Part shown: one piece after another, positions 4,786-50,451 of the stretch | Numbering within the stretch: the stretch's first letter is position 1 | Layout: every line of letters begins with the position of its first letter | Virus record (IMG/VR): IMGVR_UViG_3300025087_000036 | Location: 1-64,000 of that record | Reading direction: 5' to 3' (one strand) | Source of the DNA: a virus | DNA: 64,000 bases | Made by a program: the position numbers and the translations under genes | The notes under the pieces: model-generated | What the model was told of the DNA's origin: nothing | Database searches by the model: none | The model's input: the letters and a program-made list of their open reading frames with translations, nothing else

Positions 4786-7700
4786 ATGGATAAATTTGAG
4801 ATGAGTGATTTTCAACGGAGCATAATGGCACAAAGATACGCATTGCCAACAGAAAAAACATGGGAAGAGGTAGCAAGAAGGGTAGCGAATCATTTATCAA
4901 AAGCAGAACACAATGGAGATATGGTTATATGGGAAAAGAGGTTTAATTGGGTTTTGTCAAATGGTTATTATTTTCCAGGTGGAAGGGTTCTGTATGGGTC
5001 GGGCAGAAGACTTGGTGGTTTGTTGAATTGCTTTTGCAAGGATGTTGAGGACAACCGGCACTCTATTGCCAAGCTTATGCACGATATGTATCTAATTTCT
5101 ACATTTGGTGGGGGAGTTGGAACAAACTACAGCAACATAAGACCAAAGGGGGATCCTATCCAGGGTGTCCAAGGGGTTGCCCCAGGAGTCGTTTCAGAGA
5201 TAAGGAAGATAGATGCCATTGGTAATGAGATAAAGTCGGGTGGGGGCAGGAGGGTGGCTCTAATAGCCAACCTGGATATACCACACCCCGATGTTCAAGA
5301 GTTTTTGAATGTAAAGTTGACTTTGCATGAGTTGAACAACCACAATATTAGTGTGAATTACTTCAATAAGTTTTTTGAGGCTGTGAAAGCAGACAAGGAT
5401 TGGGTGTTTGAATTTAGGGGGCAGGTGTTCAATAGGTATCTGCTAAAGAGAACATCTAAGGGTATTGAGGACGAAATTTATGTGGTTGCCACATCCGAAG
5501 AAACTGCTTTGAAGACAGCAGAAAATTTCTTTAGACTTCATTGGGAAGATACCTTTGAAGTGGTTGGTCTGACAAACATCAAAGCCAAAGAGTTGTGGGA
5601 TACCATTTGCAAGAATGCAGTTGAGTCCGGTGAACCTGGGTTCCTGTTTGTCGATAACATAAAGAACAATTTTGCAACCAAGTATTTTGAAGAGTATAGC
5701 AGTTGCAATCCATGTGTAGTTGGGGATACATTGGTTGCCGTTGCAGATGGGAGAGATCCAATTAAGATTTCAGAATTATCAGAAATTGGTGAGGATACTG
5801 ACGTATATTGTGTTGACAACAATGGAAGTCTATCAATATCAAAAATGGAAAACATACGGAAAACTGGAAAAATGAATGACATCTATAGAGTTTCATTTTC
5901 CGATGGAACATACTTAGATGTAAATGACAAACACAAATTCATAATGAAAGATGGATCAGAGAAAACTTGTATACAATTGAAAAATAACGATTCAATACAT
6001 TCAATGACAATGTGGAAACAGAAACTTTGGAATAAACCAAAATCCCAATATTATAATTGGATTTCCCATAGTGGTAATAGAAGAACAGAGCACAATATCC
6101 AAGTAGAATTGAGAACTGGTGTTAAAATTGGACCAGATGAGTGTGTTCATCATATAGACTTAAATGGTTTAAACAACCATAGGGTTGTGTCTGTTGAAAA
6201 AATAGGTGTTGAAGATGTATATTGCGGGAATGTACTAAAACACCATAATTTTTTCTGCATTGGTAATCCAACAGTTGATAAAAATGGAAACAACAAATAT
6301 AGTATGGTGTTAACAAGAAATTGTACAGAAGCCTTGCTTCCCGATGATGGAAACTGCAACTTGGGAAGCATCAACCTTGGGTTGATGTATGATGAAGTCA
6401 CGGATGATGTGAATTGGTCTTTGTTGGAAAAGGTGATCGGGATTGCCGTGAGGATGTTGGACAATGTACTAACCATGAACGTTTATCCAACTCCAGAGAC
6501 AAAGATCGTAGCAGAGAGGTCTAGGAGAATAGGTCTAGGTGTCATGGGTCTTCACCATTTGCTAATCAAGCTTGGGTATAGATATGGATCGGAAGAGTCT
6601 TTGGAGTTCATAGAGAGGTTGTTCACAACCATACGCAACGAAGCATTCAAGGCAAGTATAGATACAGCAAAAACCAAGGGGTCTTTTCCAGAGTTTAACT
6701 ATGAGAAATACATAGACAATAACTTTGTGAAGAAGCTACCAACTAGAATTTTGAAGAGCATACAGAAGTACGGGATAAGGAATGCTGTTATTCTTTCCAT
6801 AGCTCCAACCGGGACAATATCCATGATCGCCGGAACGTCTAGCGGGATTGAACCAATCTTCTCACCTATGTATAGGAGAAAGTATAGAGTTGATAATGTC
6901 ATAGCAGAAGAGATTGTGGTTGACCCAATGTTCGCAAGGGCTGTTAATAGCGGAAACAAATGGGAGCATATCGTTGGGGCTTATGATGTAACCCCAGAGG
7001 AACACATTGCGGTTCAAGCAGCCATTCAGGATTATGTTGATCAGGCAATAAGCAAATGTGTCATCGAAGGAACGCTAATTAATACAAATTTCGGCACTAT
7101 AAAAATAGAAGATATAGCAAAAACAAAGAACATTCCAAAAGATACATTTACCACTCCACATGATGGGATTATGGTTTTGGATGAAAATGGCTGTATGAAA
7201 AAAGTTGTAAGTGTATATAATGGAGGAAGAAAAAAATGCTATTCTATTAAGTTTTCTAACGGAAGAGAAATAAAATGTTCTCTTAACCACAAATTTAAAA
7301 CACCAAACGGATGGGAGGGGGTAACAAGTTTAGATATTGGAGATAGGGTGTTTTATAATACAACGCCAATGTTGAACGATAATTTGTTTGAATACAAAAA
7401 AATTGATAGACCAAACAATTGGGTAAAAGATTACCCAACGCATATGGACGAAGATTTTGCCTTATTTCTTGGTATGTGGTTAGCAGATGGATATACAAAT
7501 AAAAACTCTGTTGGTATAGTTGAAAAAAATCATATTGTTGGTGAATTGATTGACAACCTTTTTGTTAAGTGTTTTGGGGTAGAACCGAAAACTTCGGTTG
7601 ACAAAAGATCTGGTGTTAAGTCGCACCACATAAATTCAAGAGTAATGGTTAAACACTTCAGAGATAAATTTGGTTCTAATTGTGTAGACAAGGTGGTCCC

Positions 7701-8508
7701 AGGTGAAATTATGTGTTCAAATAATCTTGTGAAGAAACATTTTTTGAGGGGCTTAACCTTAGATGGATACAAAATTAATGACACCGGAAAGCTTGTGATT
7801 TATGAGGGGTATTCAAAAGACATAGCTGAGAAATGCATTTCTATTTGTGCCGGGTTGGGATACCAATATTATTTTGGGGAAAAGAAAGTTAAGACCGGGT
7901 TGAAATCAAATAAGTCTTATGGAATTTCCATATATTATAACGATGGTTGTGATTTAATTCCAATTGAAAGCCACAAGTTACCAAGTGGAGGTAGAAAATG
8001 GATTCAGAGGTTTGTTAAGGAAGAAGATAGAGAAAAATTGGTTGAATTAATTGGGGTTGGAACCACTGAATCGTATAAGAGAAGAAATTTTAAGAGGTCC
8101 ATGAATTTGTGTGGTGGTTTTATGGTTGAAGAATCCTTGAAAAATCTTGGGTATAGTGGTTATGATTCCAATGTTACTTGTGTAAAGGTGGTGTCAATAG
8201 AATGTGTTGGAGTTAAACAGGTGTGGGATATTTCAGTTGAAGATACTCATTCATACCTAATAGATGGGATAGTTTCGCACAACACCATAAATCTCCCAGA
8301 GGACTATGACTACCATAATTTGATGGAGTTGATATTGAATTACAGCGATAGCTTGAAGGGGTTGACATTGTATCGTGCTGGGTCAAGAGCTAATGAACCA
8401 TTGGTTGCCATACCAACAACAGAAGAGAATGTTGAGTTGTATGCTAAGAACAAAGATTTGGTTAAGGTTGTTAATGAAGAGTGCAAAACAGGATCATGTG
8501 AGGTATAA
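4786..8508 (+). CDS. nrdJ: Class II (cobalamin-type) ribonucleotide reductase with two inteins
   Basis: The 1240-residue ORF is 628 residues after removal of two inteins. Extein motifs: NCFCKD with Cys82, FGGGVGTN, KSGGGRRVA, the thiyl-radical motif NPC-TE (split by intein 1), CNLGSINLG, ILSIAPTGTISMIAGTSSG and a C-terminal redox pair (CKTGSC). The KSGGGRR pattern and the absence of a nearby nrdB gene fit class II, oxygen-independent, adenosylcobalamin-using enzymes. It would supply dNTPs together with the dUTPase, dCMP deaminase and ThyX genes in the window. Both inteins sit at strictly conserved catalytic-domain sequences, the usual choice of inteins. NPCTE instead of the common NPCGE is a small oddity. 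Confidence 0.92.
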   Translation: MDKFEMSDFQRSIMAQRYALPTEKTWEEVARRVANHLSKAEHNGDMVIWEKRFNWVLSNGYYFPGGRVLYGSGRRLGGLLNCFCKDVEDNRHSIAKLMHDMYLISTFGGGVGTNYSNIRPKGDPIQGVQGVAPGVVSEIRKIDAIGNEIKSGGGRRVALIANLDIPHPDVQEFLNVKLTLHELNNHNISVNYFNKFFEAVKADKDWVFEFRGQVFNRYLLKRTSKGIEDEIYVVATSEETALKTAENFFRLHWEDTFEVVGLTNIKAKELWDTICKNAVESGEPGFLFVDNIKNNFATKYFEEYSSCNPCVVGDTLVAVADGRDPIKISELSEIGEDTDVYCVDNNGSLSISKMENIRKTGKMNDIYRVSFSDGTYLDVNDKHKFIMKDGSEKTCIQLKNNDSIHSMTMWKQKLWNKPKSQYYNWISHSGNRRTEHNIQVELRTGVKIGPDECVHHIDLNGLNNHRVVSVEKIGVEDVYCGNVLKHHNFFCIGNPTVDKNGNNKYSMVLTRNCTEALLPDDGNCNLGSINLGLMYDEVTDDVNWSLLEKVIGIAVRMLDNVLTMNVYPTPETKIVAERSRRIGLGVMGLHHLLIKLGYRYGSEESLEFIERLFTTIRNEAFKASIDTAKTKGSFPEFNYEKYIDNNFVKKLPTRILKSIQKYGIRNAVILSIAPTGTISMIAGTSSGIEPIFSPMYRRKYRVDNVIAEEIVVDPMFARAVNSGNKWEHIVGAYDVTPEEHIAVQAAIQDYVDQAISKCVIEGTLINTNFGTIKIEDIAKTKNIPKDTFTTPHDGIMVLDENGCMKKVVSVYNGGRKKCYSIKFSNGREIKCSLNHKFKTPNGWEGVTSLDIGDRVFYNTTPMLNDNLFEYKKIDRPNNWVKDYPTHMDEDFALFLGMWLADGYTNKNSVGIVEKNHIVGELIDNLFVKCFGVEPKTSVDKRSGVKSHHINSRVMVKHFRDKFGSNCVDKVVPGEIMCSNNLVKKHFLRGLTLDGYKINDTGKLVIYEGYSKDIAEKCISICAGLGYQYYFGEKKVKTGLKSNKSYGISIYYNDGCDLIPIESHKLPSGGRKWIQRFVKEEDREKLVELIGVGTTESYKRRNFKRSMNLCGGFMVEESLKNLGYSGYDSNVTCVKVVSIECVGVKQVWDISVEDTHSYLIDGIVSHNTINLPEDYDYHNLMELILNYSDSLKGLTLYRAGSRANEPLVAIPTTEENVELYAKNKDLVKVVNEECKTGSCEV
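5713..6321 (+). mobile_element. Intein 1 in ribonucleotide reductase, with eroded HNH endonuclease
   Basis: 203 residues (310-512) inserted directly before the radical cysteine of the NPC motif. It has an N-terminal Cys (CVVGDT), a block B histidine (VNDKHKF), block F (RVVSVEKIG..EDVY, then HNFF) and ends in Asn followed by extein Cys. The penultimate residue is Arg (LTRN) rather than the usual His. Between the splicing blocks only a fragment of an HNH nuclease remains (VHHIDLNGLNN), so the element can probably splice but not home. Confidence 0.88.
7057..8283 (+). mobile_element. Intein 2 in ribonucleotide reductase, with LAGLIDADG endonuclease
   Basis: 409 residues (758-1166) inserted in QAISK/TINLP. 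It has an N-terminal Cys (CVIEGTLI), block B (SLNHKF), block F (VVSIECVG..QVWDISVEDTHSY) and the C-terminal dipeptide HN followed by extein Thr. Two LAGLIDADG helices are visible, LFLGMWLADG (893-902) and FLRGLTLDG (986-994), both with their catalytic Asp. Length and motifs suggest an active splicing and homing element. Confidence 0.93.
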
Positions 8509-21845: not shown

Positions 21846-22205
21846 ATGGGGAAAATCATTGGTATTGTAGGTTCTAGGAATCGTGAGAACCCAAATACAT
21901 TGTTGAAAATTCTGGAAGTGTTCGATGTGATATACCAACCAGGAGATTGGATATGCTCTGGTGGTTGTTCCAGGGGTGCGGATAGCTTTGCCCACTACAT
22001 CCATCTTGATCGTAAACTACCATACCTTGAGTTTCCTGCTGATTGGAAAACGCACGGTAAGCGTGCTGGGTTTGTTTGTAACACGGATATAGCAAAGTTT
22101 TCGGATGTTCTCATCGCTGCCCCTGGAGATCCAGGACATGGCACAAGGGACACCATAAAGAAGTTTGTCGAGTTTCATGGAGAGGAAAATTTACACATAA
22201 TATGA
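21846..22205 (+). CDS. SLOG-fold (YspA/DUF2493-like) protein
   Basis: 119 residues of a Rossmann-like fold: KIIGIVGSRNREN at the N-terminus, WICSGGCSRGADSFAHYI (the GGxxGxD nucleotide-binding loop of DprA/SLOG proteins), then a DVLIAAPGDPGHGTRDTI loop. Members are thought to bind nucleotides or nucleotide-sugar derivatives; the phage role is unknown. GTAGGTT precedes ATG 21846. Confidence 0.75.
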   Translation: MGKIIGIVGSRNRENPNTLLKILEVFDVIYQPGDWICSGGCSRGADSFAHYIHLDRKLPYLEFPADWKTHGKRAGFVCNTDIAKFSDVLIAAPGDPGHGTRDTIKKFVEFHGEENLHII

Positions 22206-22247
22206 ACACTACTGATTATTGGTAGAGCAAAAATGACCCCAACTGCA

Positions 22248-22254
22248 TATTTAT
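22248..22254 (+). promoter_or_regulatory. TATTTAT late-promoter-like box
   Basis: CATATTTAT 18 bases before ATG 22272 of an HNH endonuclease gene, followed by a GGGGG-containing ribosome binding site. Confidence 0.55.
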
Positions 22255-22271
22255 TGTGTGGGGGTGAATAG

Positions 22272-22829
22272 ATGTATACTGCAACTTGTGTTGGCTGTGG
22301 GTTAATTAGAGTTTTTCCAAGATATTGGACAAGGCGGCATAAAAATTGGAAATGCAGACCTTGCGCTCATTCTGGATTAGACACATGGAATAAAGGTTTA
22401 ACAAAAGAATGCCACCCTGGTTTAATGAAAATCGCAGATGCATCAAAAAATTTTTACGAAAAGAATAGAGATAGCATAAGGGTCCACCATGAGTCAACTG
22501 GATATTGGACACCACTTTCTGCAAAAACAAAATGGGAAGCATATAAACAGTTGGTAAATTTGTACACAAAGCATTCCGATATATCTTTACTGGAAAATTA
22601 CAGTGAATATATCCAAACAAAACACATATTGCAACCATCTGGATACACATTGGATCATAATTTTAGTGTCCTAGAGGGGTTTAAACAAGATGTTCCCCCG
22701 CATATAATTGGTTGCGTTATCAATCTTAGCATAATATATCGTGGGGAAAACAGTTCGAAGCACGCAAAGTGTTCAATAACGAAAGAAGAGTTATATGAAA
22801 GATATGACAGATTCATTAAAGGTGGGTGA
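22272..22829 (+). CDS. HNH homing endonuclease upstream of a glycosyltransferase
   Basis: 185 residues. N-terminal zinc ribbon (CVGCGLIRVF, KCRPCAHS), a helical spacer, and a nuclease core with LDHNFSVLEGFKQDVPP, IGCVINLSIIYRGENSSKH and SITKEEL, a pattern shared with the HNH gene at 49511 (LDHIYSIYDG...). It ends 8 bases before the GTG of the glycosyltransferase gene, whose 5' end is interrupted by TAG and an inverted repeat, an arrangement resembling an endonuclease plus resistance insert. Confidence 0.85.
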   Translation: MYTATCVGCGLIRVFPRYWTRRHKNWKCRPCAHSGLDTWNKGLTKECHPGLMKIADASKNFYEKNRDSIRVHHESTGYWTPLSAKTKWEAYKQLVNLYTKHSDISLLENYSEYIQTKHILQPSGYTLDHNFSVLEGFKQDVPPHIIGCVINLSIIYRGENSSKHAKCSITKEELYERYDRFIKGG

Positions 22830-22832
22830 TCA

Positions 22833-22897
22833 AATAGTGCCCAACAAAATTAGAATTTTAATCATACCCAGCGATTCTTATGGTGTTGGGCACTATT
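22833..22897 (+). other. 14-bp inverted repeat ending at TAG in a glycosyltransferase gene
   Basis: AATAGTGCCCAACA (22833-22846) is the exact complement of TGTTGGGCACTATT (22884-22897), with a 37-base loop. The left arm contains the GTG start codon; the right arm covers GGG-CAC-TAT and the T of the interrupting TAG. Such a stem could control initiation and/or promote hopping from TAT. Confidence 0.8.
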
Positions 22898-23987
22898 AGC
22901 TTACCGATCAATTTGGGTTGCACAAGAGATACAAAAAAACCATGGGGAAGAGTTTGAGGTTGACATTAGACTAATGCAACCAATAACAGAGGACGATATA
23001 GGGGAGTTTGATATTGTCCACTATCACAGACGCATCGCCGAACCTGAAACAACCCCACTATGGGCTGATAAATTTCGCACAGCCGGTGCGATTGTTGTTT
23101 CTGATATTGACGACTTCTGGCTGCCGTTTTTTGGGCACCCAGCTTATCACATGGTTGTGGCGAAGGGTATCCATCACCAAATCATTGAAAATCTAAGGTG
23201 CGCTGATTGGGTTACAACAACCACAGAAATCTATGCAGAACACATAAGAAGGACCATAAACAAAAATGTTCACATCATACCAAATGCTATTGATCCCAAT
23301 TTGAAGATGTGGCAAAACCCAACCACAGAATCAGATAGAGTTAGGGTTGGTTGGATTGGTGGCTCAAGTCATGAGAGAGATTTGGACAAAATCAAGGGCA
23401 CTTTCAATGTGTTGTTCAATGATAAGGAGATTGCTAGTAAGATTCAGGTTGTTATGTGTGGATATGACACAAGGGGAACTGTTACTGAATTACATCCCCT
23501 AACCAAAGAGGAAAGAACAAGGAAAATAACCCCAGAAGAGTCCATATGGAACAAATTTGAAGCCATATTCAACGACAATGGTAAGGCAACACCAGAACAG
23601 TATGTAAGAAGGACAACACTTCCCATAACTCAATATGGAAACCACTATAAGCATGTGGACATTTGCTTGGCACCGCTAGATGAACACACATTCAATGAGT
23701 GCAAGTCTGAATTGAAGATAATTGAAACTGGTATGTGCAAAAAAGCGTTGATTGCATCTGATTTGTATGTCTACAAGCAGTTGTTAACTCATAGGGAGAA
23801 TGCGTTGTTGGTCAACCCAAGGAAAAACCATAAGCTATGGCACAAATACATTCGGCAACTGATACTAGATGATGCAATGAGAAAAGAGTTGTCAGAAAAT
23901 TTGTATAAGTTGGTATACCCAAAATATTCATTGGAGCATGTTACAAATGAAAGGTGTGAGTGGTATAGAAAAATACTTTCAACATGA
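22837..23987 (+). CDS. Glycosyltransferase with TAG interruption at codon 21
   Basis: From GTG 22837 the frame reads KIRILIIPSDSYGVGHY then TAG (22897-22899). Eight bases later the other frame continues RSIWVAQEIQKNHGEEFEV into the long ORF. Joined, the start has the family pattern of GT4-like phage glycosyltransferases (PSD.YGVGHYRS...AQ). TAT before the stop and TAC (22902-22904) before the resumption are synonymous Tyr codons, so a ribosome hopping TAT to TAC would restore the frame and give about 380 residues. The body has DIVHYHR, a C-terminal Rossmann part (RVGWIGGSSHERDL, LAPLDEHTFNECKSELKIIE) and modifies host or phage sugars. It is the first gene of the sugar cluster. Confidence 0.75.
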
Positions 23988-24688
23988 TGTATTACATTCT
24001 TTATGAAACAACAAACTTGATAAATGGAAAAAAATACAGGGGCGTTCATAAAACAAAAAATCTCAATGATGGGTATTTGGGGTCAGGGGTGTTGCTTACA
24101 AAAGCAATCCGAAAATATGGAAAACAAAACTTTAGTAGGGAGATATTGGTTGAGTTGTTTTCATACGAAGAAATGATTGAAGAAGAAAAATATGTTGACC
24201 ACAAGTGGGTTTTTCGCAGAGACACATACAACCTAGAAACAGGGGGAATTAGTGGAAGAGAATGGTCAAACGAAGCAAAAACTAAACACAAATTAAGGAT
24301 GAATAGTCCAGAGACAAAAAAAAGATTGTGTGAAGCGCAAAAGAAATTACAAAACACCCCAAAAAGAAAAAATAGGGCAAGAGAGATAATGAACGAGTTA
24401 TGGGGAAATAGTGAATTTAGGCACAAACAAAAAAGAATAATGGAGAGCCTAGAGTTCAAAGTAAAACAATCCAGGGGGATTTCTAAATCCTGGGAAAAAA
24501 GAGATAGAGAATCGTTTTCAGATAAAATGCGTGGTAAAAATCACAAACTACATAAGTCATTTGTTGTTGGTTGTAGACAGTTTGATTCTTTAGATGAAGC
24601 AAGCAAGGTGTTTGGTGTTACCAGAATGACAATTAGTAATAGATTAAAGTCAAAAACAAAAAAATGGAAAGATTGGGTTTATCTATAA
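23984..24688 (+). CDS. GIY-YIG homing endonuclease with NUMOD1-like tail
   Basis: 234 residues, start overlapping the glycosyltransferase stop. Nuclease domain: YYILYETTNLINGKKYRGVH (GVH replaces the common GQT), AIRKYGKQNFSREI, and Glu in MIEEEKYV. A charged helical linker leads to a C-terminal NUMOD1-type DNA-reading helix-turn-helix (FDSLDEASKVFGVTRMTI). It has no TATTTAT box, unlike other members here. A strong sigma-70-like promoter follows. Confidence 0.88.
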   Translation: MMYYILYETTNLINGKKYRGVHKTKNLNDGYLGSGVLLTKAIRKYGKQNFSREILVELFSYEEMIEEEKYVDHKWVFRRDTYNLETGGISGREWSNEAKTKHKLRMNSPETKKRLCEAQKKLQNTPKRKNRAREIMNELWGNSEFRHKQKRIMESLEFKVKQSRGISKSWEKRDRESFSDKMRGKNHKLHKSFVVGCRQFDSLDEASKVFGVTRMTISNRLKSKTKKWKDWVYL

Positions 24689-25417: not shown

Positions 25418-26152
25418 ATGGTAATATATTTGATAACAAACAAAATAAATGGAAAACAGTATGTTGGTAAAACAACTCTTACTATGGAAAAAAGGTGGTT
25501 TAAACACATATATGATGCAAACTCATTAAAAATCAATTGTTCCATACAAAGAGCAATCAGGAAATATGGAAGTGAAAATTTTTCCATAGAAAAAATTGAT
25601 GAAACTTTGTTATTTGAGGAGCTTGGAAAACTAGAAATAAAGTACATCGAAGAATATTGCACATTTAGGTCTGGATATAATCAAACTCTTGGTGGAGATG
25701 GGGCAAGTCCTGGAGAAAACAACCCAATGTATGGAGTTAGATTAACAGGAGAAACAAACCCATTTTATGGAAAAAAACACAGCGAAGAAACAAAGAAAAA
25801 AATGAGCGAAAAAGCCAAAGGGAAATATTCTGGAGAAAACAACCCAATGTATGGAGTTAGATTAACAGGAGAAACAAATGGAATGTATGGAAAAGAACAT
25901 AGTGAAAAAACGAAGAAAAAGATAAGTGAAACAAGGTTAGAAAAAAGCAAACGTGGGTGGTATAAAAATTCATATGGGGGAAAAAAATCTAAATCTCATA
26001 GAGAAGCATTATCAGTGGCAATTAAGAAACGCTTTTCCGATCCAAATGAGAGAAAAAAAATGAGTGAGGCTGCTAAAAAAAGGAAACCAGTATCAGAAGA
26101 AGTAAGATTAAAAATGAGTTTAAGCCAGAAAAAACGATGGGAGAAAAAATGA
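25418..26152 (+). CDS. GIY-YIG homing endonuclease with duplicated NUMOD3 module
   Basis: 244 residues. Nuclease: IYLITNKINGKQYVGKT, AIRKYGSENFSIE, Glu in LEIKYIEEY. Three or more NUMOD3-like DNA-binding units follow (NPMYGVRLTGETNPFYGKKH, SEETKKKMSEKAKG). One unit of exactly 40 residues has been duplicated almost perfectly at DNA level. The stop is overlapped by the ATG of the next gene, whose frame is broken 23 codons in. Confidence 0.9.
   Translation: MVIYLITNKINGKQYVGKTTLTMEKRWFKHIYDANSLKINCSIQRAIRKYGSENFSIEKIDETLLFEELGKLEIKYIEEYCTFRSGYNQTLGGDGASPGENNPMYGVRLTGETNPFYGKKHSEETKKKMSEKAKGKYSGENNPMYGVRLTGETNGMYGKEHSEKTKKKISETRLEKSKRGWYKNSYGGKKSKSHREALSVAIKKRFSDPNERKKMSEAAKKRKPVSEEVRLKMSLSQKKRWEKK
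25710..25878 (+). repeat. 49-base direct repeat, period 120
   Basis: Identical 49-base segments at 25710-25758 and 25830-25878 inside the GIY-YIG gene, encoding GENNPMYGVRLTGETN. The 120-base period keeps the frame, indicating recent tandem duplication of a DNA-binding unit. Confidence 0.85.
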
Positions 26153-26935
26153 GTTTCATGCAAGGGTTGTTAGCAAATGTAGAGAACAAATTCTATTTTG
26201 GAATAGGTGGTCTAGGTGATTTTTTTTTTACTGATGGCAACATTTTACGATAACATTGATTCTCACACAGATGTTGTTTTTGTGTGCAACAATGTAACCA
26301 CAATCAGAGAGATATCCAAGCAGTTTCCAAAGGTGAAAAAATGGTGGTTTTACCCTAGAGCATCATTTCACACTAGTCCGATTATTTGGGAGCTTCTTGT
26401 TCAACACCCAAATTTTGTTGGGTCTGGTGTAACACCAAGGCAGTTTATGTATGTTGAAGATTGGATTGAGTGTGGAAAGACAAATGTGTTTGATTACTAC
26501 GGAGTGAAACGATACCCAGCATGGGCTTTCCCGATACCAAATGAGCAAGTGTTGACGGTCATTCAGCCTTTTGGTGGTGCCGATGATCCAACAAAGATCA
26601 AAGAGATTCCAAGGGTTGTGTTAAACTCCATTGCCAATGAGTATTCTGGGTATGGAAGAGTTTGTTTGATTGGGTCAAAGAAGGACAAGGAAAAAATAGG
26701 AGAACCCTTTGGTGATGTGTGGGTGACAGACTTTGAGAATTCATTTAGGTTAATACGAAGCTGTTCAAAATTCATAGGTGCTGATTCATGGGGAAAGACA
26801 CTAGCAGCTTTCGCTGGAAAAGAAGTTGTGGTGTACCCCAATAGGTATGAAAAACCAGCGGAAAAAATGTTCAACCACCCCAAGGATCCTGGTGATTATG
26901 TGTTCCTAGATGGATGGGGGTTTGGGTTAGTATGA
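26149..26935 (+). CDS. Glycosyltransferase (GT9-like) with frame change at a T10 run
   Basis: ATG 26149 overlaps the GIY-YIG stop and reads MSFMQGLL...KFYFGIGGLGD. At T10 (26220-26229) the conserved reading moves +1 (FFLLMATFYDNIDSH). GIGGLGD followed by a hydrophobic helix is the typical N-terminus of ADP-heptose-type glycosyltransferases, so both parts belong together (about 261 residues). The remainder has the family's C-terminal pattern (VCLIGSKKD, IRSCSKFIGADSWGKTLAAF). T9 instead of T10 would restore the frame: slippage, mutation or a homopolymer error. The unbroken ORF starts at GTG 26216. Confidence 0.7.
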
Positions 26936-39492: not shown

Positions 39493-39681
39493 ATGAACAA
39501 GCTAACTATCGGAGTAAAGAATAGTGGTGGTATGCCGAAGACAGTAACCAGCAAGCTGCGATATCGGGTGTTGAATACGGAGTACGATCAGGACGATTAT
39601 GTTGAATTGATCCTTATCCTGTTGGATAGGATTGATTGGATGAGAAAGCAGAAGGACACACAAGGGTTTGATAAAAAATAG
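39493..39681 (+). CDS. Small hypothetical protein, 62 aa
   Basis: ATG 39493 behind GGGGGG. Basic N-terminus and acidic helical C-terminus (DQDDYVELILILLDRIDWM). Its last codons abut the GIY-YIG remnant. Unknown. Confidence 0.55.
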   Translation: MNKLTIGVKNSGGMPKTVTSKLRYRVLNTEYDQDDYVELILILLDRIDWMRKQKDTQGFDKK

Positions 39682-39793
39682 AGTTTGGATCAACAATGGG
39701 GTTGAAACAAAAATGATTCGTCAAAATGAGATTGATCAATTTCTAAATAATGGTTGGTTAATTGGACGAAAGATTGGAGGTTTGGTGAAATGA
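39680..39793 (+). pseudogene. C-terminal remnant of a GIY-YIG homing endonuclease
   Basis: The frame reads RVWINNGVETKMIRQNEIDQ then FLNNGWLIGRKIGG, the same C-terminal module as the intact endonuclease ending at 39397 (RVWICKDDKTKMIRPDEL, GGWLKGRKG). No nuclease domain or start remains. Its stop still overlaps the phosphoesterase ATG, showing that a full endonuclease gene once sat directly upstream. Confidence 0.85.
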
Positions 39794-39823
39794 GCGAAAG
39801 ATTTTATACCGCAGATTTTCACC
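39784..39823 (+). other. 7-bp inverted repeat spanning start codon to hop site
   Basis: GGTGAAA (39784-39790) pairs with TTTCACC (39817-39823), loop 26 bases. The left arm touches the ATG of the phosphoesterase gene; the right arm ends on the first base of CTT, the codon before the in-frame TGA. Short, so weaker than the repeats at 1.4 and 22.9 kb. Confidence 0.4.
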
Positions 39824-40314
39824 TTTGAAGGCTTTTCCACAACAACATCATCAAGTATTGCAATCGCCCATTTGAAACTATCTGGGAAATGCACGATGCC
39901 ATTGTTTCTGGAATGAATGAAAAGGTGAAGCCAAATGATGAGCTATTCATCCTTGGTGATGTGTCTTTTTATGGTGGGGAAAAAGTTAAAGATATCCTTA
40001 AGCAAATCAATGGTCGTAAGCATTTCATCATTGGCAACCATGATGCCAAGAATATGAAAAATTGGGATGGGTGGAAGTCTGTAAATTCCTACCTTGAGAT
40101 AAAAGACCAGGGGCAATTGGTTGTCCTCTTCCATTATCCAATTGAGAGTTGGCGAAACATGAGTCATGGTTCCATACACCTTCATGGGCACAGACACGGT
40201 ACTGTGCCGGATAAGGGGTTTAGATGCGATGTTGGAGTTGACCCATGGAAGTTTTCTCCTGTGAGCTTAACCATGCTAACAGAGAAGTGGCTTAAAGAAG
40301 GTAAGTTGGTGTAA
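39790..40314 (+). CDS. Calcineurin-type metallophosphoesterase with in-frame TGA at codon 13
   Basis: Reads SERFYTADFHL, TGA (39826-39828), RLFHNNIIKYCNRPFE in one frame. Family members have D.H(L/F)xHxNIIKYCNRPF; skipping TGA-AGG-CTT (9 bases, CTT before and CTT at the end) gives ADFHLFHNNIIKYC, which matches. Other metal motifs are intact: LGDVSFYGG, IIGNHDAKN, HYPIESW and HGHRHG. With the skip the protein is about 171 residues. The unbroken part alone would start after the first metal-binding Asp/His. Probable nucleotide or protein phosphoesterase. Confidence 0.75.
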
Positions 40315-46143: not shown

Positions 46144-46334
46144 TGGGAGATCTAAAGATTCTGTCAAAGAACCAATTGAAGGATAGGCTAAGATTTTTGT
46201 CAGACAAGATTCAGAGCATATACGATTCTATTGAGCCAAAGCTACTTGAGTTTTCTGAATTGAAGAAGGAATACACAGCCATTTTGGTTGAGCTAAAAGA
46301 TAGGGGATTGCTTGGAGAGGTAGATAAAAAGTGA
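46143..46334 (+). CDS. Small coiled-coil protein, 63 aa
   Basis: Charged, uninterrupted helix with heptad character (LKDRLRFLSDKIQSIYDSIE, then LLEFSELKKEYTAILVELKD). TAATG overlap upstream and GTGA overlap downstream. Possibly a structural adaptor. Confidence 0.62.
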   Translation: MGDLKILSKNQLKDRLRFLSDKIQSIYDSIEPKLLEFSELKKEYTAILVELKDRGLLGEVDKK

Positions 46335-46738
46335 GTAATAAAACCCTGCAATCGTTGTGTACCTTTGCCAACTCTTCCAGCAAGAATAGTGCGGTGGAAA
46401 CAGAGATTTTGTACCATGCTAAAGTTGTTTCGGTTGAGGATCCATGGAACTGCAAAAGGATAAAGGTAAGAATAGATGGAGTAGACAATAGCTTTAGGGA
46501 TAAAGAACTAGCATGGTGCATTCCTTTTATGTCGTCTTTTTTCCATTGCTTGCCACTTGTTGGGGAGCATGTCCTTTGCTTTTGTAAGAATCCGTGGAAC
46601 AAAGCCTTTGATAGATTTTGGATAGGACCAATACTAACAGGAGACAATACCGAAACGGAAACATACGAATCTTCTATGAATGAGCTTGGTTTGACGGTTA
46701 GAAACAAAAACAAAGGAACCTCGGTGGGCAGAGCATGA
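46331..46738 (+). CDS. Baseplate OB-fold protein (gp5 N-terminal-like)
   Basis: GTG 46331 overlaps the previous stop (GTGA). 135 residues. KVVSVEDPWNCKRIKVRIDG, then LAWCIPFMSSFFHCLPLVGE and HVLCFCKN...FWIGPIL follow the OB domain of T4 gp5/VgrG-type central spike proteins. No lysozyme domain is attached. It overlaps the next gene (ATGA), which may supply the following part of the spike. Confidence 0.68.
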   Translation: MSNKTLQSLCTFANSSSKNSAVETEILYHAKVVSVEDPWNCKRIKVRIDGVDNSFRDKELAWCIPFMSSFFHCLPLVGEHVLCFCKNPWNKAFDRFWIGPILTGDNTETETYESSMNELGLTVRNKNKGTSVGRA

Positions 46739-47142
46739 AATTTCTAAGGGATGATGACATAGGGTTTGTTGGAAGGGGGGAATCTAAGAACTGTGTTTTG
46801 TGTAGACAAGACAGAAGCATTCTTATTACCAGTGACATATTGAAGACAAACTCCCAAACTGAAACAGAATCAATATCCCTAAATGCCCTGGAGGAAAAGA
46901 TAGGGGTATTGGCTAAAGACATTGAACTGTTTTCCAAGGGTTCAACCAGGACGCCAGAATCAATTGTTTATGGTGAGTCCCTTGTAGAAATCCTCAAGTG
47001 GATTGTCAACATAATGATGACCCACAAACACCCGCCAAATGCACCACCCATTCCAGATTGGTTTTCAGATGCTAGGAACAAGATGAAAGAATTGACGGAC
47101 GATAAATCTGGGATAGTCAACAAAAGGGTGAAGTCAAGATAA
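46735..47142 (+). CDS. Baseplate-region protein, 135 aa
   Basis: Begins MKFLRDDDIGFVGRGESKNC, a gp5-like segment after the OB domain, then helices and HKHPPNAPPIPDWF. The split into two proteins with ATGA coupling is unusual if it corresponds to one T4 protein. Function inferred from position. Confidence 0.6.
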   Translation: MKFLRDDDIGFVGRGESKNCVLCRQDRSILITSDILKTNSQTETESISLNALEEKIGVLAKDIELFSKGSTRTPESIVYGESLVEILKWIVNIMMTHKHPPNAPPIPDWFSDARNKMKELTDDKSGIVNKRVKSR

Positions 47143-49510: not shown

Positions 49511-50155
49511 ATGGAAAAAACTGATCGCGGATTTGAAGAGAGATCAAAAAAAGAAAGAAGCGAACTACAAACAAAAATTAATAAGAAAATTTGGGCTTCT
49601 TATACAGAAGAAGAAAGATTGGCTAGATCGTTAGCTATAAGTAAAGCGAAGATTGGAAAACTACGGGGTAAGTTTTCTGTTGTGCCGCCAAGAAATAAGA
49701 AGTGCGGATATGGTGTATGTGACAACTTAGTATATGAAAAAATATTGCAAAATGGTGGAAGGAAGTGGAATAAATATTGTTGCAAAGAACACTCTCGTTT
49801 GGGGGCTGGAAAGAACATAACAAAGGCAAACACAAAATCCATAGAAAACAAAACAAAATATTACGAATATAGGAAAGAGGTTTATAGGTTTACATTTAGA
49901 AACAATTTATCAAAATTGGTTGGGTACGAAAAAAGGGGTAAAATGAAAATTGGAACTGACAATTATAATTTAGATCACATCTATTCCATATATGATGGGT
50001 ACACAAATAAAGTAGATCCAAGTGTTGTTGGAAACATAGAAAACCTGCGGTTTATACCATGGAAAGAAAACAGAAAAAAGGGAAACATCTCCCATATTAC
50101 ACTAAATGAATTAATTGATAGAGTGGTAAGGAGCCAATATGCCAGCAACATCTAA
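49511..50155 (+). CDS. HNH homing endonuclease in the baseplate block
   Basis: 214 residues. Basic N-terminus with NUMOD-like helices, a zinc site (KKCGYGVCDN; KYCCKEHS) and a nuclease core YNLDHIYSIYDGYTNKVDPS, VVGNIENLRFIPWKENRKKG, NISHITLNEL, related to the gene at 22272. It has its own late-type box and its end overlaps the damaged gene at 50139. Confidence 0.85.
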   Translation: MEKTDRGFEERSKKERSELQTKINKKIWASYTEEERLARSLAISKAKIGKLRGKFSVVPPRNKKCGYGVCDNLVYEKILQNGGRKWNKYCCKEHSRLGAGKNITKANTKSIENKTKYYEYRKEVYRFTFRNNLSKLVGYEKRGKMKIGTDNYNLDHIYSIYDGYTNKVDPSVVGNIENLRFIPWKENRKKGNISHITLNELIDRVVRSQYASNI

Positions 50156-50451
50156 AAAACAACAGCAAGCAGCAGCCATAGCTTTAGCTGCAAAAAAAAG
50201 GAAAGAAAGGGGCATCGGAGCTAACTGGTGCTGCGAAGGAAATGTATGATGGAATGGGGGTCAACGCTTCCGTTGATCATATAAAACCCATATCAAGATA
50301 TCCAGGTTTAACAAAAGATCCAAACAATGTCTGTTGGTGTGATGTTTCAATAAACACTTCAAAGAATGATCGTGAGCCGGATGAGTTTAAAGAAGAGATT
50401 AACACACTGGTTTTTTATGATGATTTACATAGGAGGAATAAAGACACATGA
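50139..50451 (+). pseudogene. Chimeric relic: DUF3008-like 5' part joined to an HNH C-terminal fragment
   Basis: ATG 50139 reads MPATSKKQQQAAAIALAAKK, the start of small DUF3008-type phage proteins. After A8 (50192-50199) the homologous sequence continues in another frame (GASELTGAAKEMYDGM), so one A is extra. At about 50251 the DUF3008 sequence switches, in that second frame, to the HNH C-terminus GVNASVDHIKPISRYP...NVCWCDVSINTSKNDR, matching the endonucleases at 19329 and 42093. The nuclease N-terminal half is missing. The gene is a recombination scar, not functional as either parent. Confidence 0.82.

Follow-up and report, generated by a model that had tools for sequence, protein, structure and literature searches.

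The HNH endonuclease gene that precedes the glycosyltransferase gene in this phage is a 638-nt cassette lying within codon 3 of the glycosyltransferase gene itself, an arrangement recognised here for the first time, and eight additional bases (TAGCTTAC) break the glycosyltransferase frame 20 codons after the start codon that the cassette supplied. This anatomy is real and unusual. With slightly better than even confidence, we attribute it to insertion of the cassette, production of an inverted copy of the adjacent codons during repair, and acquisition of the eight bases as a scar or resistance insertion, the outcome being a split gene. A translational hop over the insert is the other live reading, and the less likely one on the present evidence, which is that of the sequence. 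The window, as we call the whole 64,000-nt stretch analysed (positions 1 to 64,000 of record IMGVR_UViG_3300025087_000036), belongs to a phage of the T4 superfamily, as judged by its major capsid protein. The features of the locus are listed in Table 1.

Table 1. Features of the glycosyltransferase locus, in window positions.
Feature	Positions	Strand	Evidence
SLOG/YAcAr-like gene; its TGA overlaps the ancestral glycosyltransferase ATG (ATGA)	21846..22205	+	PF10686, E 3.5e-5; order and overlap the same in L004
Ancestral glycosyltransferase ATG, now separated by the cassette	22202..22204	+	Alignment with L004 glycosyltransferase start ATGAATAAAATTAGAG
Left-hand AACA of the direct repeat marking the ends of the cassette	22205..22208	+	Empty-site alignment with L004
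638-nt HNH cassette in glycosyltransferase codon 3 (right AACA, 22843-22846, included)	22209..22846	+	Joined flanks compared with L004
HNH-type freestanding homing-endonuclease-like ORF, 185 aa	22272..22829	+	Motif relatives; phrog_23051, phrog_5104
81-nt hairpin holding the GTG start	22825..22905	+	RNA fold, −31.6 kcal/mol, z −7.0
Left arm of perfect 14-bp inverted repeat, cassette 3' end	22833..22846	+	Repeat search
GTG, substitute start codon from the cassette	22837..22839	+	Window sequence; empty-site alignment
Right arm: GVGHY codons and first base of the insertion	22884..22897	+	Repeat search; all relatives share the motif
TAT-TAGCT-TAC: putative take-off codon, 5-nt gap that begins with the stop, and landing codon	22894..22904	+	Window sequence
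Frame-breaking 8-nt insertion between conserved Y and R	22897..22904	+	Missing in 79 relatives
Remainder of GT4 glycosyltransferase, 360 open codons	22905..23987	+	phrog_7162, E 3e-36; PF00534; L003/L004
Second homing endonuclease (GIY-YIG), directly downstream of the glycosyltransferase	23984..24688	+	phrog_314, E 7e-41

An HNH cassette lies within codon 3 of the glycosyltransferase gene

The boundaries of the cassette were established at base resolution by comparison with the intact gene of a syntenic phage (L004). The gene begins ATG AAC A, is interrupted by the 638 nt of the cassette, and resumes at 22847 with AAATTAGA; the flanks, once joined, align base for base with the start of the L004 gene, and both ends carry AACA. 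The GTG at 22837-22839, which the sequence-only reading took as the start of the gene, is indeed in place, but the ancestral start is the ATG at 22202, upstream of the HNH gene. It follows from these boundaries that the GTG and the left arm of the inverted repeat described below are derived from the cassette, and that the right arm is ancestral coding sequence.

The HNH endonuclease gene recognised earlier just upstream was confirmed; its ORF ends at 22829, 7 nt before the GTG. The HNH assignment is by sequence motif only, the protein itself having no Pfam match. We observed relatives of the LDHxFSI..GF..KCSITKEEL type at 45 loci, some of them within inteins, and the segment WNKGLTKE is similar to NUMOD3, to which two of the aligned relatives have matches. 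As in freestanding HNH homing endonucleases, an HNH-type ORF with homing relatives and a NUMOD3-like segment is present, it is missing from the syntenic phages, and the empty site was found; the present case differs in that the insertion falls within codon 3 and supplies a replacement start codon. A group I intron was rejected, as no Rfam match was obtained at the gathering or the permissive threshold and only 80 nt of the cassette are outside the ORF. No HNH relative was seen beside such a glycosyltransferase among the loci with HNH relatives, the endonuclease proteins of the window had no matches in the glycosyltransferase loci, and no close relative was found among GTDB contigs.

Eight additional bases break the frame at a conserved junction

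The sequence between the GTG at 22837 and the TAG at 22897-22899 is VPNKIRILIIPSDSYGVGHY. As described earlier, GVGHY is followed by TAG, and RSIWVAQ is then encoded in another frame after eight extra bases, flanked by the synonymous Tyr codons TAT (22894-22896) and TAC (22902-22904). The CGA at 22905 starts the open frame that runs to 23987. The exact position of the insert is ambiguous by a few bases. In a comparison with phages without the HNH gene, proposed as a check in the sequence-only reading, none of the 79 glycosyltransferase relatives examined (L003, L004 and about 77 more distant sequences) has the eight bases, and all read uninterrupted through the Tyr–Arg junction. The eight bases are therefore an insertion in the present lineage. 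The N-terminus of the relatives, [PN]SD..GV[GS].[FY]R, is unbroken, and the arginine after the insert corresponds to R20 of the L004 protein and is invariant in an alignment of 24 sequences. A second contig (IMGVR 3300025073_000327, 15,280 bp) is 100% identical, including the eight bases.

The glycosyltransferase is 55-59% identical to its homologues in the two syntenic phages, L003 and L004. A model of the L004 homologue (pLDDT 90) has the GT-B fold and matches the GT4 enzymes MshA, BshA and GlgM, and the GT4 C-terminal domain is recognised by PF00534. In this model the Tyr–Arg junction falls within helix 16-31, shortly beyond strand 1. Decoded in the ordinary way, the gene consists of a 20-residue peptide and an ORF that has lost the first strand and part of helix 1. 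At 80 conserved columns we counted 7 departures, versus 8 and 11 in the intact closest relatives, and this undecayed remainder fits a recent break or a rescued gene alike. A search for a second, intact glycosyltransferase copy found none.

Other ways of decoding the gene were considered. A −1 programmed frameshift was rejected because no X-XXY-YYZ heptamer precedes the TAG in the window sequence. A recoded TAG or a phage suppressor tRNA was also rejected, given that TAG ends 28 of 123 long ORFs and none of the 26 phage tRNAs is a suppressor; moreover, reading TAG as sense would still not restore the frame. These 26 tRNA genes are located in one region (L146, 1277-19733), and none of them is for Tyr. 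In the window sequence, the downstream frame has no ATG, GTG or TTG before 22974.

An inverted repeat covers the substitute start codon

The 14-bp inverted repeat reported earlier, with its left arm over the GTG and its right arm ending on the T of the TAG, is perfect, and forms the core of a 32-nt pair (22825-22856 / 22874-22905) that is 81% complementary. It is the sole inverted repeat of at least 12 bp with a spacer of up to 150 nt in the window. A chance origin was rejected, since only 0.03 repeats of at least 14 bp are expected in shuffled sequence and the fold has a z of −7.0.

The sequence-only reading treated this repeat as part of a take-off and landing arrangement. Most of that arrangement was borne out: the frame-breaking eight bases with their stop, the synonymous Tyr codons, the adjacent HNH gene, the relatives without the insert, and the undecayed downstream ORF. 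The role of the repeat as a bypass signal of the T4 style was not, because with TAT in the P site the right arm would be inside the ribosome and the part still able to fold amounts to about −1 kcal/mol. A repair scar left by the cassette insertion accounts for the repeat better. Since the motif encoded by the right arm is common to all relatives, the left arm would be the copy, and since the left arm belongs to the cassette, copying would have run from right to left. The hairpin covers the GTG, so that initiation would probably require ribosomes that have just completed the HNH ORF 7 nt upstream. Stable hairpins over a start codon beside homing-endonuclease sequences are also present at I-TevI, segB, soc and e of T4-like phages (PMC2988022); here, in contrast, the start codon concerned is that of the gene following the nuclease gene, and the far arm of the hairpin consists of codons of that gene.

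Frame breaks and homing endonucleases in the window

The phage carries at least 10 freestanding homing-endonuclease-like ORFs. Relatives in the two syntenic phages are known for 67 genes, of which only two, the glycosyltransferase gene and a gene at 26149, are clearly frame-broken; each lies directly after a homing endonuclease. Two further broken genes, at 39790 and 50139, follow homing-endonuclease sequences, and at least six other genes downstream of homing nucleases look intact.

The gene at 26149-26935, which follows a GIY-YIG ORF, is broken at a T10 run (26220-26229) that is identical in the second contig; transcriptional slippage is possible there. The metallophosphoesterase gene (39790-40314) reads CTT-TGA-AGG-CTT at codons 12-15, its relatives are without these 9 nt, and the product without them would be TADFHLFHNNIIKYCNRPF, in agreement with the family. 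Just upstream is the remnant of a GIY-YIG C-terminus (39677-39772), and a hairpin at this gene was not significant (z −1.0). The small gene at 50139-50451 is broken at an A8 run; it comes after the HNH gene at 49511-50155 and is joined to a remnant of an HNH C-terminus.

Probable origin of the split gene

According to the explanation that we favour, a freestanding HNH cassette would have entered codon 3 of the GT4 glycosyltransferase gene, which thereby acquired its GTG start. Within the cassette, the 10 nt that precede the right AACA (AATAGTGCCC) form, together with that AACA, an inverted copy of the GVGHY codons of the gene. We infer that the bottom-strand 3' end at the AACA junction (TGTT) snapped back on its own strand and paired with the AACA of the right arm, and that copying from there yielded AATAGTGCCC by microhomology-primed repair. 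Such templated copying would account for both the perfect 14-bp repeat and the hairpin that covers the start; copying of the outer part is uncertain, as the outer stem is less well matched. Homing nucleases tend to target conserved sites such as the Tyr–Arg codons, and this junction may have been the target. By analogy with T4, the eight bases in the conserved motif are most likely a scar of repair or a cleavage-resistance insertion inherited with the nuclease, and little or no full-length protein would be made.

This sequence of events is consistent with the empty site of L004, the intact junction in all relatives and the origins of the two repeat arms. The position of the two clear frame breaks among the 67 genes argues for it as well, as do the missing slippery heptamer and downstream start, the location of the junction within a helix of the modelled fold, and the T4 precedent (PMC5009743, PMC3014915). 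Against it, the glycosyltransferase shows no further decay, which could mean that it is still expressed; a search for a template for the eight bases within 2 kb returned only chance matches of 7-8 nt; and both block insertions in the window have the geometry of a hop, which is unlikely by chance.

This geometry bears on the main alternative, a stop hop, which we regard as possible although we lean away from it. The tRNA-Tyr would leave TAT at the TAG, skip TAGCT and re-pair on TAC, yielding a normal protein, and the nuclease cassette and a tolerated gap would travel together, as in T4 gene 60. Only a hop would yield the family protein exactly (GVGHYRSIW). The TAG comes directly after the take-off codon, TAC pairs perfectly with the Tyr anticodon, the 360 downstream codons are undecayed, and stop hops work in synthetic constructs (PMC5009743). 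The metallophosphoesterase gene, with its 9-nt insert (CTT-TGAAGG-CTT) after a homing-endonuclease sequence and a product that fits the relatives, would be a second case. Random insertions give such geometry in 0.6% of cases, and a match like TAT/TAC arises in about 3-5% of those carrying 2-3 nt of microhomology; its occurrence in both block insertions is a modest argument for hopping. In contrast, a nascent-peptide signal, an A-site stem-loop and an SD-like sequence before the landing codon were not identified; the first ORF comprises only 20 codons, mostly family-conserved, and therefore has no room for a nascent-peptide signal of the T4 type. Additionally, most of the hairpin would be unable to form at take-off, the phage has no tRNA-Tyr gene of its own, and no natural in-frame stop hop is known (PMC5009743). 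That this phage has more than one natural stop-hop element, placed within the first 20 codons after a homing-endonuclease sequence (22894, 39823), appears doubtful; if true, nucleases would protect the sites that they target by means of very short insertions over which the ribosome hops, and the arrangement of T4 gene 60 would be one instance of a recurrent strategy.

A plain recent inactivation, in which a random indel unconnected with the nuclease struck a dispensable gene, is unlikely. It agrees with the intact relatives and the insertion in one lineage, and elsewhere in the window frames are broken by homopolymer slips (T10 at 26220, A8 at 50192); nevertheless, the breaks are found immediately behind homing endonucleases, the 67 genes contain no further clear case, and the insertion is present in two identical contigs. 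Use of the downstream ORF from the ATG at 22974, alone or with the N-terminal peptide, as a truncated or two-piece enzyme seems improbable. T4-like phages offer examples of enzymes split in the wake of nuclease insertion (PMC2988022), but this one would be without strand 1, helix 1, the nearly invariant P-S-D..G-V-G and the invariant R20, the methionine at 22974 is not conserved, and it has no well-placed ribosome-binding site. An assembly or sequencing artefact is very improbable: the data are metagenome contigs only, but the same eight bases occur with no mismatch in the second 15,280-bp contig, possibly from a shared study, and an 8-nt non-repeat insertion is atypical of read errors.

Comparison with T4 gene 60 and other systems

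The closest known system is mobA/gene 60 of T4, in which, as here, an HNH-type gene is inserted in a gene of a T4-like phage and relatives are without both nuclease and insert (PMC5009743, PMC3014915); the 50-nt gene 60 insert has been proposed to be a scar or resistance insertion inherited with mobA (PMC5009743, PMC3014915). In both, a single tRNA can read the take-off and landing codons, the stop directly follows the take-off codon, homologues are free of the insert, and bypassing restores the sequence of the family protein. The T4 bypass needs a nascent-peptide signal and stem-loops (PMC5009743, PMC11194080), whereas in the present locus, which is known from sequence only, a nascent-peptide signal, a take-off stem-loop and an SD-like landing aid are not identifiable. 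The gap is 5 nt (TAGCT) instead of 50, 20 codons precede the stop instead of 46, and the codons are synonymous, not identical. A strong hairpin is present near take-off, but its 3' arm would be in the ribosome at that moment, leaving a free top of about −1 kcal/mol. Two defining features, a stimulator 25-30 residues before take-off and a long gap with an SD-like sequence before landing, were not found at this locus, and we therefore do not claim membership in programmed bypassing. The synthetic stop hops of E. coli span 9 nt, with matched codons flanking the stop, and encode one residue (PMC5009743); here 11 nt are involved, the frame changes, and the gene is a natural one.

The layout resembles the one famous case of T4, and the hop itself is a candidate. 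Bypassing of an insert beside a homing endonuclease rests essentially on T4 gene 60. Were this locus a second natural example, the idea of a protective insert combined with a hop could be tested on it, given its exact empty site, its gap of 5 nt and a junction peptide that can be looked for. If no hop takes place, the locus documents damage by a homing endonuclease to its neighbours, through a cassette in codon 3, an inverted copy that was probably templated, and a block of 8 nt in the conserved motif.

Other interrupted genes were also observed. Two ORFs at 46331-47142, which overlap by ATGA, correspond to a single gene in L134 (2190-2942), with no insertion and no nuclease nearby. Intein-like in-frame insertions are present in a ribonucleotide reductase gene (window 4786-8508), a large terminase-like gene and a third gene (L147, 9834-13937 and 17957-19636). 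In L148 (806-5702), two related major-capsid-like genes flank a nuclease-looking ORF of 461 aa.
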